From assembly GCF_003013695.1 (NCBI RefSeq), contig NZ_CP027792.1, forward strand, positions 3,182,501-3,246,500: a DNA stretch of 64,000 bases, written 5' to 3'. Of this stretch, positions 45,927 through 53,948 are shown piece after piece. The notes below the pieces were generated by a model, which did not search any database, was not told where the DNA came from, and saw only the letters and a program-made list of their open reading frames with translations. The translations under genes were made by a program, and so were the position numbers. The DNA comes from Pulveribacter suum. Its GTDB lineage: Bacteria; Pseudomonadota; Gammaproteobacteria; Burkholderiales; Burkholderiaceae_C. Positions within the stretch are counted from its first letter, which is position 1, and every line of letters starts with the position of its first letter.

Positions 45927-46088
45927 GGCCGCTACTGTGGCACGGCGCGCCCGGCCGGCCGGACGCGCCCTGGTCCGTAGAATTGCGCATTTGCCACTGT
46001 GCCGGCGGGCCCCGCCCGGCACGCGCCCGTCCGACGCGCCGCGCCGCCTGCCTTGCGCCGCGCCCACCACGCCTTTCTCGCACGCACC

Positions 46089-47714
46089 GTGTCCTACGCC
46101 TTTGAAACGCGGCGCCGCCGCACCTTTGCCATCATCTCCCACCCCGATGCGGGCAAGACCACGCTGACGGAAAAGCTGCTGCTGTTCTCCGGCGCCATCC
46201 AGATCGCCGGCGCCGTGAAAGGCCGCAAGGCCAGCCGCCACGCCACGTCCGACTGGATGGAGATCGAAAAGCAGCGCGGCATCTCGGTGGCCAGCTCGGT
46301 CATGCAGATGAGCTACCGCGACCACGTCATCAACCTGCTGGACACGCCGGGGCACAAGGATTTTTCCGAGGACACCTACCGGGTGCTCACGGCCGTCGAT
46401 TCGGCCTTGATGGTCATCGACGCGGCCAACGGCGTGGAAACGCAAACGCGCCGACTGATCGAGGTTTGCCGCCAGCGCGATACGCCCATCATCACGTTCG
46501 TCAACAAGATGGACCGCGAGGTGCGCGACCCGCTGGACATCCTGGACGAGGTGGAGCGCGAGCTGGGCATGCCCTGCTGCCCCATGACCTGGCCCGTGGG
46601 CCAGGGCCGGCAATTCGGCGGCATCATCGACCTGCGCACGCGCACCATGACGGTGTTTTCACCCGGCAGCGAAAAGCGTCCGGAAGACTTCGAGATCATC
46701 CCGCTGGCCGAAGCCGACAGGCTGCGCGCGCGCTTCGGCTCGGTCTTCGACGACGCGCTGGAGAGCATGGAGCTGGCCGTGGGCGCCTCCGCCGAGTGGA
46801 GCCACGAGCAGTTCCTGGCCGCCAAGCTCACCCCCGTGTTCTTCGGCTCGGGCGTGAACAACTTTGGTGTCAAGGAAGTGCTGGACGCGGTAGTGGACAT
46901 GTCGCCCCCACCCGGCCCGCGCACGAGCACGCTGGCCGTGAACAAGCAACCTGTGGAAAAGGTCGTACAGCCTGAGGACGAGGGCTTTGCCGGCGTGGTC
47001 TTCAAGGTGCAGGCCAACATGGACGCCAACCACCGCGACCGCATTGCCTTCGTGCGCGTGGCCTCGGGCAAATACACACCCGGTATGAAGATGCGCGTGC
47101 AGCGCACGGGCAAGGAGCTGCGCCCCACGTCGGTCGTCACCTTCATGAGCCAGCGCCGCGAGGCGGTGGAAGAAGCCTACGCGGGCGACATCATCGGCTT
47201 TACCACCCACGGCGGCGTGCAGCTGGGCGACACCATCACCGATGGCCCGGCCCTGCAATTCACCGGCCTGCCCTTCTTCGCGCCCGAGATGTTCATGACG
47301 GTGGTGCTGAAAAACCCACTGCGCACCAAGCAGCTGCACGAGGGCCTGATGCAGCTGGGCGAGGAAGGCGCCATCCAGGTGTTCAAGCCTGAGGCCGGTG
47401 GCAACATGCTGCTGGGCGCCGTGGGCCAGCTGCAGTTCGAGGTCGTGCAGCACCGGCTGAATACCGAATACAACTGCGACATCCGGCTGGAGGGTTGCCA
47501 ATACACCGGGGCGCGCTGGATCACGGCGGACACGCCGGCCGAACTGCGCGAGTTTGAAAACGCCTATCCGCTGCGCATGGCGCGAGATGCAGCGGATACG
47601 CTGGCGTATCTGTGCACGAGCCCCTACGACGTACGGCTGGCGCAGGAGCGGTTTCCGAAGATCCATTTCCATCCGCTGCGAGAGCATGCGGGGTTGGCAT
47701 TGCAGAGCAGCTGA
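46089..47714 (+). CDS. prfC: Peptide chain release factor 3
   Basis: This 541-aa GTPase recycles RF1/RF2 after translation termination. GTPase motifs are SHPDAGKTTLTEKL (P-loop), LLDTPGHKDFSEDT and FVNKMDRE. The GTG at 46089 gives MSYAFETRRRRTFAIIS, the usual start, and no ATG lies at this point. The 3' end runs into the lower-GC island only 8 bp later. Confidence 0.96.
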   Translation: MSYAFETRRRRTFAIISHPDAGKTTLTEKLLLFSGAIQIAGAVKGRKASRHATSDWMEIEKQRGISVASSVMQMSYRDHVINLLDTPGHKDFSEDTYRVLTAVDSALMVIDAANGVETQTRRLIEVCRQRDTPIITFVNKMDREVRDPLDILDEVERELGMPCCPMTWPVGQGRQFGGIIDLRTRTMTVFSPGSEKRPEDFEIIPLAEADRLRARFGSVFDDALESMELAVGASAEWSHEQFLAAKLTPVFFGSGVNNFGVKEVLDAVVDMSPPPGPRTSTLAVNKQPVEKVVQPEDEGFAGVVFKVQANMDANHRDRIAFVRVASGKYTPGMKMRVQRTGKELRPTSVVTFMSQRREAVEEAYAGDIIGFTTHGGVQLGDTITDGPALQFTGLPFFAPEMFMTVVLKNPLRTKQLHEGLMQLGEEGAIQVFKPEAGGNMLLGAVGQLQFEVVQHRLNTEYNCDIRLEGCQYTGARWITADTPAELREFENAYPLRMARDAADTLAYLCTSPYDVRLAQERFPKIHFHPLREHAGLALQSS

Positions 47715-47722
47715 CTGCCAGC

Positions 47723-50700
47723 ATGAGCCCCCTCTCCCCTTCTGCCCAAGGCAGCCATCCGGGCAACAACTTCGATGCGATCCGCATCGTCGCCGCCACC
47801 ATGGTGCTGGTCAGCCACCACTACGCTCTGACCGGGCAGATGGAGCCGTCCTTTTTTGGCATCCACAGCCTGGGGGGGCTGGCCGTCACCATCTTTTTCG
47901 TCATCAGCGGATATTTGGTGACTGCCAGCTGGCAGCGCGACCCCAACGTATGGCGCTTCGGCCTGCGGCGCTTTCTGCGCATCTGGCCTGCACTGACCGC
48001 TGTGATCGTGTTAACAGCCTATGGACTGGGCGCCTGGGTGACGGAACTGCCGCTGGGGCAATACCTGACGCATGGAGCCACGGCGAACTACCTGCAAGGC
48101 CTGTGGATGAAGATTCACTTCGTGCTGCCGGGGGTCTTTGAGGACAATCCCTATCCGTCCGGAGTCAATGGTTCGCTGTGGACCATCCCGATCGAGGTGC
48201 GGTGCTATCTCTTCCTGGGTTTGGCCGGCGTGGTGGGCCTGCTCCGCTTTCGTGTCGTGTTTCTCACGGGTGTTGCCATTGCCCTGGGCTGGTTTCTCTT
48301 GCGCAGCAACGCCGACCTGACCGGAAGCGTGCATTACGGACGCGAACTGAGCGTATTTTTCCTCTCCGGCGCTGCGCTGCAGGCATTAGAGCCGCAGTGG
48401 CGCCGCCGTCCTGCGCGGTGGGCGGCTGTGTTGTGCCTGCTCGCTGGCGCAGCCTGGGTGGCGGATTGGCGGCACACTGCTTTGCTGCTGGCCCTGCCCT
48501 TCGCCGTCATCTATGGCGGCACGCGCGCCACGCCCTTTCTGCGCCGTGCAGGACGGTGGGGCGACCCGTCTTACGGCATATACCTCTTCGCCTTCCCGAT
48601 CCAGCAAACCATCATTTTTTACGCCTGGCCTGAAGCAGGTTTTACAGGATCCCTGCTGCTGGCCATAGCCTGCACGACGGCCCTCGCCTATGCCAGCTGG
48701 CATCTGCTAGAAAAGCAGGCTCTGAAGTTCAAACCCAGTCGGCAGCAGCGCACTTGGCGGGCCACCCTCTCATGTGGCCTCCAACGCATCAGAAATATTC
48801 TTTTGTCTCCCTGGGCGTGGCCTGTCATCGCCGGATTTGTCGGGCTGCGCCATATCGCACACAGGCTCGGTGCGCCGGTGCTTCCAGATCCGGAGTACAC
48901 CTATCTGCCAGCCGCCCGCGCGTTCCTGGAACAAGGATGGTCCTTTCTGCTCACCCCGCAGAGCTATCAAGTGACGCCGCTGGCCTATCTCTGGCCTGCG
49001 CTCTGGGGAGCAGAGCCACTGCTGATCCGCGTGGCCAATATGGGGTTGTGGATAGGGAGCGTCTTTTTCCTCTGGCGTACCAGCTGCCTGCTGGGCGGTC
49101 CGCTGGCCGGAGCCAGCGCCATGGTGCTGCTCCTTCTTTCCTCCGAACTGCTGCGCTACTTTCCTTCAGAGATGACGGAGCCGCTCTTCCTGTTTGCTCT
49201 GTTCGGCTGGATGCACGCGCTTGCACGCATCGTCATTGCGCGTGACTACAGGGCATCGACGGCACTCCAGGGTGCCATCATGCTCACCCTGACGCTGCTG
49301 ACCCGTCCTGTGTTGCAGCTGGTCGCGCCTGCGGGCCTGCTCGCCTGCCTGGCATGGCTGACCTATCGCGCAGCCTTTCTAAGAGGCGAGAGCGACGACA
49401 GCCCCGTGCCTCGACAGGTGGCAGCCCTTGCCTGGAGTGTGGCAGGCGCACTGGTGCTGCCTCTTGCACTGGTTCTGAAGAACGGGTTGGTCTTTGGGTT
49501 GTGGGGCCTGGGCACGGGCTCGGGCATCGGGTTATACCTTGGTACGCATCCGCTTTTCCAGGGTGCAGAACCGGGCTTTCTCGGATTCGGCTTCGATGTC
49601 AACACCCTGGTCGCGCTGGCAGCCCAGTCGGGCAACCCGCTTTCACTGGAGGGAGACCGGGCAACATCTCTCGCAGCTTTTTGGCAGCTTCAGTCGATGG
49701 CGCCTGCCGAGGCTGTGCAGTTCTTCACCCGAAAGCTGTGGTGGTGGCTGGCTCACCACCCGGCTCAGATCGAAACCGCAGGCCGAACGCTGCGCAACGT
49801 CCGCCTCATTGAGTTTTTTCTGATCGCGGCCGCCGTCTTGCACCTGCTGTTGAATCGTCGCCTGGCAGTACAGCCAGGCAGCGAGCCCGTCCTGCTACGC
49901 CGCTCACCCGCCCTGTGGCTCGCCGCGCTGCTTGCTCTACTTCTGGGCGCGATGCTGGTTCAGCTGCTGCCCATCTTGCACAACAGCCGCTACAGCTCCG
50001 TGCTTCTCGACCCCTGGCTGATACCTCTGGCGTCCTTGAGCATGGCTGTGCTCATAGGCACGCTGCACATTCGGATCGAACGCTCACGCAGCCGTTGGTG
50101 CCTTGCGCTGATGACCAGAGACCACCGTGCAGTCAGTTCGACACTCGGCTGGCTAGTCGTTGTGGTGGCCTTGTCTTTCACGGCTTCGTTCCTGTCGCTC
50201 AAGTGGGAGCGCAACGCCATTGATCCCGAACGAATGGGTGCGGTCCGCACGATCGTGCAGCTGGCCGAGAATGTGGAAACAGCAGCCCATGGCATGCAGC
50301 CTGCTGGCGAGCAGGCCTGGATAGTCATGCAGTCGCCTGCCTCCTTGAATGTCGCTGTTGACGCCTCGGTTGTGAAGCAGATCAGCGAAGCCAACCCCTT
50401 TAACGCTCTCTGGGAAACACAGCTGGCATTGGAAAGCGCAGGCGGAAAATGTCGACAGGTGGGCTTCTCCTTTCAAACATTTACCGGACGCATTCTCCAG
50501 CCATCCTACCGCCTGCCTCTACAGCCGCGAGTGGAGACCGATGGTGCCATGCGCCCACTGGTGGTATCCGCCAATCACGAGTTGCGTCCGCGTGAACCGG
50601 GCAGCCTGCGCATCGAGATCCATTGCCCCGTGGGCACACGCCTGCAGTGGGGCGGTACGCGAGTGCTTGAAAGCCGCCATCCCTGGGACGCGGCCGCTCA

Positions 50701-50725
50701 CATCCAACCACGAGATCCCGCATGA
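47723..50725 (+). CDS. Fusion of acyltransferase family 3 and GT-C-like glycosyltransferase (membrane)
   Basis: The protein has 1000 residues. Residues 1-332 form an acyltransferase-3 domain (OafA-like) with the His motif FDAIRIVAATMVLVSHH and FFVISGYLV. A short linker leads to a second polytopic half (about 360-860) with an acidic motif LPDPEYTY at 387-394 after its first membrane helix. Its layout resembles ArnT/PMT-type GT-C transferases, followed by a soluble C-terminal domain (about 860-1000). Such a protein could move an acyl group and a sugar onto the same envelope glycan. The ATG at 47723 is 8 bp after prfC. Codon use is visibly less GC-rich than in neighbours. The GT-C assignment rests on topology and the acidic motif, not on a strong family match. 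Confidence 0.85.
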   Translation: MSPLSPSAQGSHPGNNFDAIRIVAATMVLVSHHYALTGQMEPSFFGIHSLGGLAVTIFFVISGYLVTASWQRDPNVWRFGLRRFLRIWPALTAVIVLTAYGLGAWVTELPLGQYLTHGATANYLQGLWMKIHFVLPGVFEDNPYPSGVNGSLWTIPIEVRCYLFLGLAGVVGLLRFRVVFLTGVAIALGWFLLRSNADLTGSVHYGRELSVFFLSGAALQALEPQWRRRPARWAAVLCLLAGAAWVADWRHTALLLALPFAVIYGGTRATPFLRRAGRWGDPSYGIYLFAFPIQQTIIFYAWPEAGFTGSLLLAIACTTALAYASWHLLEKQALKFKPSRQQRTWRATLSCGLQRIRNILLSPWAWPVIAGFVGLRHIAHRLGAPVLPDPEYTYLPAARAFLEQGWSFLLTPQSYQVTPLAYLWPALWGAEPLLIRVANMGLWIGSVFFLWRTSCLLGGPLAGASAMVLLLLSSELLRYFPSEMTEPLFLFALFGWMHALARIVIARDYRASTALQGAIMLTLTLLTRPVLQLVAPAGLLACLAWLTYRAAFLRGESDDSPVPRQVAALAWSVAGALVLPLALVLKNGLVFGLWGLGTGSGIGLYLGTHPLFQGAEPGFLGFGFDVNTLVALAAQSGNPLSLEGDRATSLAAFWQLQSMAPAEAVQFFTRKLWWWLAHHPAQIETAGRTLRNVRLIEFFLIAAAVLHLLLNRRLAVQPGSEPVLLRRSPALWLAALLALLLGAMLVQLLPILHNSRYSSVLLDPWLIPLASLSMAVLIGTLHIRIERSRSRWCLALMTRDHRAVSSTLGWLVVVVALSFTASFLSLKWERNAIDPERMGAVRTIVQLAENVETAAHGMQPAGEQAWIVMQSPASLNVAVDASVVKQISEANPFNALWETQLALESAGGKCRQVGFSFQTFTGRILQPSYRLPLQPRVETDGAMRPLVVSANHELRPREPGSLRIEIHCPVGTRLQWGGTRVLESRHPWDAAAHIQPRDPA

Positions 50726-51069
50726 GCCTTAGCCTCAGTCTTTTTACGCTGCTGTGTGTCGTCGGCATTTCCATAGGCCAGCTGCTTTTCAAGAAGGCCG
50801 CGGCTGCATTGCCCGCAGCGCTTTCGCTGGGAGCTGTGGTGACCAACGGCTGGTTGCTGGCGGCACTTGCGCTGTATGGAGTTACTACCCTGGCATGGAT
50901 CTGGGTGCTCAGACATGCACCCCTGCATTTGGCTTATCCATTCATGGGCCTCGCATTTCTGATCGTGCCGACGCTGGCGTGGTTGCTCCTCGGGGAGCCG
51001 CTGCACTGGCGCACCCTGGCGGGCGGCGCCTTGATCATGGCTGGCGTTGCGCTGGCCTCCACCAGTTGA
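50722..51069 (+). CDS. Small EamA/SMR-type membrane protein (ArnE-like flippase candidate)
   Basis: This 115-aa protein has four membrane helices, beginning SLSLFTLLCVVGISIGQLLF with KKAAAALP next and containing HLAYPFMGLAFLIVPTLAWL, as in ArnE/ArnF and other small EamA-like transporters. The start overlaps the stop of the fusion gene by four bases (ATGA). Between a GT-C protein and a polyprenyl-phosphate glycosyltransferase, the natural role is flipping a lipid-linked sugar to the periplasm (inference). Confidence 0.85.
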   Translation: MSLSLSLFTLLCVVGISIGQLLFKKAAAALPAALSLGAVVTNGWLLAALALYGVTTLAWIWVLRHAPLHLAYPFMGLAFLIVPTLAWLLLGEPLHWRTLAGGALIMAGVALASTS

Positions 51070-51079
51070 GGGCACTTCC

Positions 51080-52042
51080 ATGCGCATTGCCGTTGCCATA
51101 CCCTGCTACAAGGTCACCCAGCACGTACTGGGCGTGATTGAGGCCATCGGTCCCGAAGTGCACGCTATTTATGCAGTCGATGATGCCTGCCCCGTCGGCA
51201 GTGGTCGTTTCATAGAAGAAAACAACTGCGATCCACGCGTGCGCGTGCTTTACAACCCGGAAAATCGCGGTGTCGGCGGCGCCATCGTCACGGCTTACAA
51301 AGCAGCCCTGGCCGATGGCATGGATATCGTGGTCAAGATCGACGGCGACGGACAGATGGACCCAACGCTGCTACCCCTGTTCGTGCGCCCGCTGCTGCGC
51401 GGGCAGGCCGACTACACCAAGGGCAATCGCTTCTATCGGCCCGAATCGGTGCAGGGCATGCCGCCGGTGCGGCTGTTCGGCAATGCCGTGCTGTCGTTTT
51501 TGACCAAACTCAGCTGCGGCTACTGGAACGTGATGGATCCGACCAACGGCTATACAGCCGTGCGCACCTGCGTGCTGGCAGAGCTGCCTTTGGACAAGCT
51601 CGAGCGCCGCTACTTCTTCGAGACCGACATGCTGTTTCGTCTGAATACGGTACGCGCCGTGGTGCAGGATGTGCCCATGGATGCGATTTATGCGGACGAG
51701 GAATCGAACCTGAATGTGAGTCGCGTGCTACCCGAATTCCTGCGCAAACATCTGTCTCGGCTGGGACGGCGCTATGTCTACAACTACCTTGTGCGCGACT
51801 TCAACGTAGGCACGCTGTACAGCCTTTTCGCAGCCCTTTTGCTAATGGCAGGAGCTGTTTTTGGTGGCTGGCATTGGATCGTCAGCAACAGCACCAACCA
51901 TCCCGCCACCAGCGGCACGGTCATGCTGGCAGCCCTACCTATCCTGATTGGCATCCAGTGCCTAATTGCATTCCTGCACTACGACGTCAGCAATGTGCCC
52001 AGCGAGCCCGTCAGCCTGTCGCTACAGGACCTGCCTTCCTGA
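51080..52042 (+). CDS. GtrB/DPM1-like family 2 glycosyltransferase with two C-terminal membrane helices
   Basis: The protein has 320 residues. The GT2 domain (MRIAVAIPCYKVTQHVLG; D-x-D in VVKIDGDGQMDP) is followed by two membrane helices at about 245-295 (TLYSLFAALLLMAGAVFGGW; MLAALPILIGIQCLIAF). This layout is that of enzymes moving a sugar from a nucleotide donor to undecaprenyl phosphate. The ATG at 51080 has GAGGG about 8 bases upstream. It lies 10 bp after the flippase gene. Confidence 0.92.
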   Translation: MRIAVAIPCYKVTQHVLGVIEAIGPEVHAIYAVDDACPVGSGRFIEENNCDPRVRVLYNPENRGVGGAIVTAYKAALADGMDIVVKIDGDGQMDPTLLPLFVRPLLRGQADYTKGNRFYRPESVQGMPPVRLFGNAVLSFLTKLSCGYWNVMDPTNGYTAVRTCVLAELPLDKLERRYFFETDMLFRLNTVRAVVQDVPMDAIYADEESNLNVSRVLPEFLRKHLSRLGRRYVYNYLVRDFNVGTLYSLFAALLLMAGAVFGGWHWIVSNSTNHPATSGTVMLAALPILIGIQCLIAFLHYDVSNVPSEPVSLSLQDLPS

Positions 52043-52056
52043 ATTCAGCAGGCACC

Positions 52057-53157
52057 GTGCATTCCTTGACCGAAAACACGCCTGCACCCGGCTGGCAGGC
52101 GCCCTTCGCCCAGCGCCCACATGCCAACCTGCAATGGGTCCAGGCATTGCGCGGCATTGCGGCATTGATGGTGCTGTTCTTTCATATGCATCCGCACTGG
52201 AACCTGGTTCCTGTCCTAGCACCAACGGCTGCAGTCACGCGCTGGGGGTTCTCAGGCGTGGACATCTTCTTTGCACTGAGCGGCTTTGTCGTGTATCGGT
52301 CGGCGCAGCGCTCCGTGGCCAACCACGGGGCAGGACCATTCCTGCGCCGGCGGCTCTTGCGCATCTACCTGGGCTATTGGCCGGTGTTGCTGCTGATCGC
52401 CGCGTTCACGCTCCTGGTGTATCAGGAAAAACTGCCTCCCGTCGGAAAGATGATCTTCAGCACCCTGTTGCTATACCCCAATATCTGGGACAACTGGCTG
52501 CCGCCGGCCTGGTCGCTCACCATGGAGATCTATTTCTACCTCTGGATCACCGCTATCGCACTGCTGCCCTGGCGCTGGCAGCCAAAGGCGATTGCAATCC
52601 TCATGGCCTTGCTGGCGGCGTGGGGTGCTGGCTGGCTGATATTCGACGCCGCGCGAGTATTTGAGGGCCGACAGCCGCTGCGTTACGGGCTTACCGGTCT
52701 GGGGTTGGAGTTTCTGGCTGGCGCCTTGCTGGCGCGCGCCTATGACAGGGGTGCAGCGTGGCTTTCCAACTCTGGGCTGACTGTGCCATTGTGTCTGTGT
52801 GCCATAGCGGCTGGCATTTCTCTGGGCAATCTTTCGCCTTATTTCGACCGTGTCGAGGTCATGCGAGCAGCCAGCTTTGGGGTGATGGGTGTGGCAGCGC
52901 TGACGCTGATCCTCGTCCTCGAGCATTCACGGTTTACGCCGCCACGCTGGCTCGTGCATATCGGAGACGCCTCCTTCAGCCTATACCTGCTGCACACCTT
53001 CCTGCTGGACGCCAGCGGCCGCCTTCGCATGGAGTGGCAGGTGTCCCAGCCCGGCGCACTGCTGTGCTTCATGCTGGCACTTCCCGTGGCCATCGTCATC
53101 CTTAGTCTGCTTTGGTACCGCTGGGTGGAAAAGCCCCTGATGAAAGTCTTTCTGTGA
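52057..53157 (+). CDS. Acyltransferase family 3 protein
   Basis: This 366-aa integral membrane O-acyltransferase of the OafA type has the signature VQALRGIAALMVLFFHMHPHW with its catalytic His and VDIFFALSGFVVYRS. About ten membrane helices are visible. No ATG is placed well. A GTG at 52057 gives the shortest complete N-terminus, and a TTG at 52066 is an alternative. It is a second, separate acyltransferase beside the fused one, which suggests two acylation steps or sites. Confidence 0.9.
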   Translation: MHSLTENTPAPGWQAPFAQRPHANLQWVQALRGIAALMVLFFHMHPHWNLVPVLAPTAAVTRWGFSGVDIFFALSGFVVYRSAQRSVANHGAGPFLRRRLLRIYLGYWPVLLLIAAFTLLVYQEKLPPVGKMIFSTLLLYPNIWDNWLPPAWSLTMEIYFYLWITAIALLPWRWQPKAIAILMALLAAWGAGWLIFDAARVFEGRQPLRYGLTGLGLEFLAGALLARAYDRGAAWLSNSGLTVPLCLCAIAAGISLGNLSPYFDRVEVMRAASFGVMGVAALTLILVLEHSRFTPPRWLVHIGDASFSLYLLHTFLLDASGRLRMEWQVSQPGALLCFMLALPVAIVILSLLWYRWVEKPLMKVFL

Positions 53158-53948
53158 TTCCCCTGCCCCACTGGCCCTCTGACTCCCGCAGCCGCATCAC
53201 CGGCGTTTTCACCGACATCGACGACACCCTCACCACCGACGGCGCGATCACCCCCGACGCCCTGCAGGCCCTGGCCGACCTGAAGGCCGCCGGCTTGGCG
53301 CTGGTGGCCATTACCGGCCGGCCCGTGGGCTGGAGCGAGCCGTTTGCGCTGGCCTGGCCGCTGGACGCCATCGTGGCCGAGAACGGCGCCGTGGCGCTGC
53401 GCCGCAATGCCTCGGGCGGGCTGGACAAGCTCTACCAGCAGGACACGGCCACCCGCGCCGCCAACTACGCCCGCATGCAGCAGGTGCTGGCGCACATCGA
53501 GGCCACGATCCCCGGTGCGCGGCGCGCTACCGACTCGGCCGGGCGCGAGACCGACATCGCCATCGACCACAGCGAGTTCACGCAGCTGTCCGACGCGCAG
53601 ATCGAAAAGGTAGTGCTGGCCATGCGCCACGAGGGCATGCACGCCACGGTGAGCAGCATCCACATCAACGGCTGGTACGGCGAGCACAACAAGCTGGAAG
53701 GCGCGCGCTGGATCGTGCGCGAGCTGTGGGGGCGCGACCTGGACGCCGAGCGCGCGCACTGGGTGTATGTGGGCGACTCGACCAACGACGCGCTGATGTT
53801 CGACGCCTTCGAGCACAGCGTGGGCGTGGCCAACGTCGCGCGGTTCGTGCCGCACCTGTCGCACCTGCCGCGCTATGTGACACAGGAAGAGCGCGGCGCG
53901 GGATTTGCCGAAGTGGCGCGCGCCGTTTTGAGCCAAAAGGGCCGCTAG
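53154..53948 (+). CDS. HAD-IIB family phosphatase
   Basis: This 264-aa HAD hydrolase has motif I FTDIDDTLTTDG, motif II AITGRP and motif IV VYVGDSTNDALMF. It is of the sugar-phosphate/mannosyl-phosphoglycerate phosphatase type. The GTG at 53154 overlaps the stop of the acyltransferase (GTGA). Codon use returns to high GC, so it may belong to the backbone rather than the island. The last codons (VLSQKGR) are encoded by a copy of the intergenic repeat. Confidence 0.88.
   Translation: MIPLPHWPSDSRSRITGVFTDIDDTLTTDGAITPDALQALADLKAAGLALVAITGRPVGWSEPFALAWPLDAIVAENGAVALRRNASGGLDKLYQQDTATRAANYARMQQVLAHIEATIPGARRATDSAGRETDIAIDHSEFTQLSDAQIEKVVLAMRHEGMHATVSSIHINGWYGEHNKLEGARWIVRELWGRDLDAERAHWVYVGDSTNDALMFDAFEHSVGVANVARFVPHLSHLPRYVTQEERGAGFAEVARAVLSQKGR

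Follow-up and report, generated by a model that had tools for sequence, protein, structure and literature searches.

The window analysed here, a 64,000-nucleotide stretch of the Pulveribacter suum genome, carries an island of four genes in one tight run on the + strand between prfC and a gene for a HAD-IIB hydrolase. These encode a fusion of an AT3 acyltransferase with a GT-C glycosyltransferase, an SMR/EamA protein, a GT2 glycosyltransferase and a second, free-standing AT3 acyltransferase. Taking all lines of evidence together, I consider it likely that the island is an exchangeable cassette for envelope-glycan modification, and the gene set probably decorates a surface polysaccharide with a sugar and with acyl groups. 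An initial annotation of this DNA had described a four-gene island. The set is not fixed: the second AT3 can be absent, and it is in the transferase that genomes differ. The site between prfC and the HAD gene is a more informative observation than the four-gene composition. SMR, AT3 and LtaS-like, as group names, are partly labels of this study derived from Pfam hits.

The site was followed across the family, Comamonadaceae by its named members. Of 200 family genomes, 192 contained prfC, and a match to the GT2 occurred in 51 of 399. The match reached at least 70% identity in 23 genomes and lay in the interval after prfC in every one of them (23/23), with an SMR gene in 21 and a HAD gene found in 21 of these 23 sites. 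Forty regions were chosen by hand, 20 for the presence of GT2 and 20 mainly for a prfC without a nearby GT2 match. GT2 followed prfC within the interval in 19 of the 20 GT2-selected regions, and HAD was not found in one, L108. Excluding L142, which had been selected together with its GT2, left 19 regions without GT2; here HAD lay less than 60 bp from prfC in ten, at 60-500 bp in two and further away in two, was not found in five, and neither SMR nor GT2 occurred in the interval in any (0/19). Empty sites made up 11 of the 40 regions, with 15-59 bp between the prfC and HAD matches, as measured between tblastn match ends. Gene calls came from a simple GC-bias script that missed some open reading frames (ORFs), later found in gaps; the counts use tblastn. 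Loci L034, L048, L037, L042, L032, L093, L078, L075, L061, L040, L001 and L014 were dropped as repeats, and the short repeats L002, L003, L015, L016 and L018 enter no count.

Beside SMR and GT2, occupied sites held a DUF7657 protein on the opposite strand, DUF2142 or PMT-like proteins and other polytopic proteins (names taken from Pfam scans of eight ORFs as representatives), and some held relatives of the window GT-C at 23-42% identity. Variation was seen even within the genus: two of four other genomes, examined at the site, carried different cassettes (L104, L106), namely SMR-DUF2142-GT2 in G001 and AT3-GT2 in G003, while G002 and G004 had no GT2 match. At L117:9089-9289 and L118:8110-8334, all that was found of the second AT3 was its final 67 and 75 residues, respectively, directly before HAD, which reads as the scar of an earlier cassette exchange. 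Homologous exchange may be the means by which the contents change. A prfC site of this kind was not described in the literature searched, which covered few subscription papers. Comamonas serinivorans (L020:8344-12765) has two relatives of the window GT-C, one on each side of the SMR gene, and the ORF at L041:15902-17776 belongs with 11 similar ORFs in other loci to a family of 520-1093 amino acids near GT2 and HAD; this ORF, the one scanned, matches nothing in Pfam and begins with a signal-like stretch.

The largest protein of the island is the fusion of 1000 amino acids (47723-50725, +), whose ATG lies 8 bp past the prfC stop. Its residues 1-342 (47723..48748) form the AT3 acyltransferase domain, with PF01757 at residues 16-324 (E 2.1e-21). 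The second half is, by structure prediction, a GT-C fold (residues 351-839; 48773..50239) followed by a CBM-like (carbohydrate-binding-module-like) beta-domain (residues 840-987; 50240..50683), which resembles polysaccharide-binding modules. The initial annotation had called the protein an acyltransferase/GT-C fusion; both parts are supported, the GT-C by prediction, and the alternative it had named as refuting, another fold in the second half, was not seen, but the third, CBM-like part had been missed. Pfam gave no match in the second half, even at E 10; the GT-C call rests on predicted structure, for which ArnT was the top-ranked solved structure. A PDB sequence search with the fusion gave no match, a GT-C profile against PDB gave two matches only (E 0.2 and 0.26), and PMT_2 (PF13231) appeared in 3 of 101 GT-C-half homologs, of which two were rechecked and one was above cut-off. 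On the predicted fold, this half is a candidate GT-C transferase of a three-component periplasmic glycosylation system.

Searches scoring the 7997 best word-sharing candidates yielded 102 fusion homologs and 101 GT-C-half homologs. Both halves were matched in 28 of the 102 (a 29th covers merely 35 amino acids of the first half), so the fusion is not a sequencing error or an isolated read-through. Identity was 35-61% across 27 aligned homologs (28 rows with the window). In this alignment the AT3 residues F58, F59, S62, G63, R83, R86, E158, D281, S283, Y284 and G285 are invariant and H32 nearly so. The GT-C domain has an invariant Asp at residue 389, just past its first membrane-type helix. An ordinary AT3-SGNH protein was considered and rejected, as Pfam found no SGNH and no second family anywhere in the 1000 amino acids. 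No description of an AT3–GT-C fusion was found in the literature, judged by titles and abstracts and with few subscription papers covered, and the apparent combination of AT3, GT-C and CBM-like tail was not found described together there either.

The AT3 half has been joined to different partners. A quick tree, with SH-aLRT as its only branch support, was built from 73 AT3 halves, those of the window and of 72 among the 102 homologs. It requires 16 or more changes of C-terminal partner class, where the minimum possible is 4 and shuffled classes give a mean of 36.6; partner class is thus clustered, yet the two largest classes did not each arise once. The starred branches alone force at least six changes for the GT-C class and at least five for a class with a partner of 450 amino acids, and two classes form single groups. 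P0014 (GT-C partner) and P0073 (450-amino-acid partner) share 97.3% identity across residues 1-337 and show no relation beyond them, and the join falls at about the same position in all six pairs compared. When the profiles of the two main partner types, A3 and A4, were compared, no relation emerged (probability 0.6%); the 450-amino-acid type has GT-C-type Pfam matches below threshold (Alg9-like, E 0.0023; DUF2142, E 0.032). Further partners in the AT3 clade carry PF00884 and, more distantly, methyltransferase, GT2 and Wzy_C domains. P0059, P0060 and P0064-P0071 combine an AT3 of the same clade with C-terminal parts that mostly carry PF00884, here labelled LtaS-like.

Tentatively, and at somewhat less than even odds, I read the prfC-HAD interval as an antigen-switching site where one AT3 module has time and again been linked to a new extracytoplasmic transferase, with the result that acylation and modification of the glycan swap as single plug-in proteins. 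The partners in question are the GT-C with its CBM-like tail, the second polytopic type with weak GT-C similarity, and the PF00884 phosphotransferase-like domains.

Of the remaining island genes, those for SMR and GT2 would supply a lipid-linked sugar. The SMR protein (50722-51069, +; 115 amino acids) passes the EamA cut-off (PF00892, 30.7 bits against 28.2) and also matches TMEM234 in Pfam, which makes it a candidate small flippase-type membrane protein, presumably for a polyprenyl-phosphate sugar. Residues GQ, FK, YP and VP are invariant in 41 SMR sequences including the window; the first helix of these has no conserved acidic residue, and lipid-type SMRs often carry Asn where the central Glu stands, according to the relevant part of an SMR review (PMC9574504). 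Its sequence had no match in PDB. The GT2 (51080-52042, +) matches PF00535 and dolichol-phosphate mannose synthase 5mlz (E 2e-7) and has a hydrophobic C-terminal tail read from its sequence, as would suit a membrane-anchored, GtrB/DPM1-like polyprenyl-phosphate sugar synthase. The second AT3 (about 52057-53157, +; PF01757, E 8e-35) may start at GTG 52057 or TTG 52066, either being possible. PF01757 is thus passed by both AT3 genes, and of five simple AT3 patterns the fused copy has all five and the second copy three. The logic of synthase, flippase and GT-C transferase, as proposed initially, is supported by domains and predicted GT-C fold. The flippase had also been called ArnE-like rather than GtrA-like: it matches EamA and not the GtrA family of the gtr operons (PF04138, no Pfam match), but it stays below the NCBIfam cut-offs for ArnE and ArnF. 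In the same genome, outside the window, the sole GtrA (PF04138) match lies with GT2 and YdjC-like genes at L147:650-3073, another possible lipid-sugar set.

How far the genes travel together was assessed in the six full-length-fusion genomes for which DNA was compared (the window, L027, L028, L029, L030 and L142; the fusion loci were drawn from the best 80 of 382 matches, giving 77 loci). SMR and GT2 lay inside the same prfC-HAD interval in five of the six. Co-occurrence, suggested initially as a check, thus holds for the fusion, SMR and GT2 with one exception; a second AT3 of at least 60% identity was present in only two (the window and L027).

Several observations weigh against the cassette reading or narrow it. 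The exception is Lampropedia puyangensis (L028), whose fusion has no adjacent SMR or GT2 and whose GT2 (64%) is on another contig, and in Ramlibacter (L022) the site contains the two AT3 genes without SMR or GT2, the whole genome being free of GT2 matches. L104 and L109 have a GT2 without detectable SMR, and in L110 prfC and HAD are 18 bp apart with the GT2 beyond HAD. For the 28 genomes with a GT2 below 70% identity, three regions were examined, of which L123 and L142 have it at the site and L110 beyond HAD; others among the matches listed lie away from prfC, for example in G020, G113, G173 and G213, which belong to the 19 genomes without GT2 at the site and whose GT2, at 57-61% identity, is encoded elsewhere. 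Delftia (L041, L111) and a Burkholderiaceae metagenome-assembled genome (L045) encode AT3 and GT-C separately, so the fusion is not needed everywhere. The full-length model of the fusion has a predicted TM score (pTM) of 0.71, which leaves the placement of the two membrane halves unsure, P0014 and P0073 both come from metagenome sources, and the flippase scored 37.3 of 99 bits for ArnF (E 3e-9) and 35.9 of 92 bits for ArnE (E 7e-9).

As a mechanism, the GT2 would charge undecaprenyl phosphate with a sugar on the cytoplasmic side, and the SMR protein would carry the lipid-linked sugar over to the periplasmic leaflet. There the CBM-like tail may hold the GT-C domain on the nascent polysaccharide, most likely O antigen, for transfer of the sugar, while the fused AT3 would bring acyl groups, probably acetyl, across the membrane beside the GT-C active site. 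A single protein would thus glycosylate and acylate the polymer, and the acyl group may sit on the added sugar, not on the backbone or on the donor lipid. In genomes that have it, the second AT3 might acylate another position. Relatives at the prfC-HAD site mostly keep SMR and GT2 and have different transferases, in the way that gtr operons share gtrAB and vary the third gene.

Three other explanations were weighed. The fused AT3 could be a passenger, its join neutral and the halves independent, as split and fused arrangements both exist and PF01757 was found in just 22 of 101 GT-C-half homologs; I regard this as unlikely, given that the fusion is kept across the deep divergence of the 28 aligned rows and that AT3 halves were repeatedly combined with different partners near the same place. 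A protein glycan such as type IV pilin, rather than O antigen, may be what the same machinery acts on. The genome encodes a PglL-like ligase (Wzy_C_2, PglL_A) at about 945 kb, a point in favour of protein glycans as acceptor, and the same logic operates in Pseudomonas pilin arabinosylation and mycobacterial cell-wall arabinosylation, as the relevant part of PMC11127046 relates. The resemblance of the tail to polysaccharide-binding modules speaks for a polymer instead, as does the characterised GT136 enzyme with a CBM, which acts on one (same part of PMC11127046). Outside the window, about 32-38 kb downstream (L026:6077-12120), a likely O-antigen cluster combines an ABC ATPase that carries a Wzt C-terminal domain with a methyltransferase and two AT3 genes, and a similar GT2-EamA-GT39 set elsewhere precedes an ABC-transporter ATP-binding gene. 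A protein acceptor is accordingly improbable, and the O-antigen polymer is my best guess, based on the CBM-like tail together with the downstream Wzt/ABC cluster and the Pseudomonas asturiensis set described below. Acylation of the lipid-linked donor, with GT-C receiving an already acylated sugar, seems comparably doubtful: the AT3 is fused to a transferase and no SGNH was found, so the acyl group would be near the donor site, and this AT3 module also occurs in fusions with other C-terminal partners, but AT3 is a separate gene in related clusters (L038, L041) and I know of no donor acylation of such a kind.

A seroconverting phage as present carrier was not supported, with five phage records matching GT2, all at 33% identity or less. 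In the plasmid collection the fusion had matches in 60 records, each below 60% identity and none reaching a coverage of 80%, and 140 records there had GT2 relatives, also all below 60%. A Pseudomonas asturiensis plasmid has in a row GT2 (55%), EamA and glycosyltransferase-39 genes, then an ABC-transporter ATP-binding gene. Among the 20 of 30 direct-repeat families listed, those pairing the island ends were short and inexact, one of them matching at 76% over 21 nt.

The layout is compact, and all four genes are overlapping or nearly touching, as first annotated. Upstream lies prfC (peptide release factor RF3; 46074..47714, +; Pfam GTP_EFTU, RF3_C), the SMR/EamA gene start overlaps the fusion gene end by 4 bp, and the GTG at 53154 of the HAD-IIB gene (53154..53948, +; TIGR01484 over cut-off) overlaps the stop codon of the second AT3. 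The HAD-IIB gene is flank and not an island member. The island (47715-53153) has a G+C content of 61.3% against 68.9% for the window, in which the lowest stretch of 5439 bp has 61.2% and begins at 47720. For a large environmental family, the prfC-HAD site offers a defined locus from which surface-glycan variety may be read from genomes, and its natural present/absent pairs could be used for testing.

Among known systems, the gtr operons of Salmonella and Shigella consist of a polyprenyl-phosphate sugar synthase, a small flippase and a variable GT-C (relevant part of PMC11127046), and those of Salmonella are horizontally acquired and shuffled (part of PMC3688519). The island shares this scheme, but its flippase matches SMR/EamA and not GtrA, its transferase adds AT3 and CBM-like parts, and it sits at the prfC site with phage GT2 matches only at the low identities given above, whereas the Salmonella operons lie in phage-associated regions. 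The ArnC-ArnEF-ArnT aminoarabinose pathway shares the ArnE/F-like SMR and supplied the top-ranked solved structure for the GT-C half; the island differs in having one SMR gene, in not reaching the Arn NCBIfam cut-offs and in its added CBM-like and AT3 domains. By its description in part of PMC11127046, the Citrobacter youngae O1/O2 pentofuranose system (GT136) has a GT-C that ends in a CBM, an arrangement resembling the predicted GT-C and CBM-like parts of the island. The flippase of this three-component O-antigen system, ORF14, has four predicted helices, resembles ArnE as the SMR protein does and is assigned to the MATE family by its authors. Its donor comes from a phosphoribosyltransferase rather than, as predicted for the island, from a GT2, and no acyltransferase fusion is described in that part. 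Since ORF14 and the Pseudomonas asturiensis set already resemble it, an ArnE-like flippase cannot serve as the distinguishing novelty it was first taken for. The AT3-SGNH O-acetyltransferases OafA, OafB and PglI likewise place an AT3 module before a second extracytoplasmic transferase part; in the island, that part is not SGNH but is predicted to be a membrane GT-C bearing a CBM-like tail. Partners named for AT3 in the relevant parts of PMC9558356, PMC9833829 and PMC12423673 are SGNH, alanine/serine racemase and others in eukaryotes, with no GT-C among them, and the first of these reviews asks, in the part concerned, how the acyl group is passed on by AT3 domains that lack an SGNH partner. A fusion that may perform acylation as well as glycosylation of a surface polymer could inform this question.

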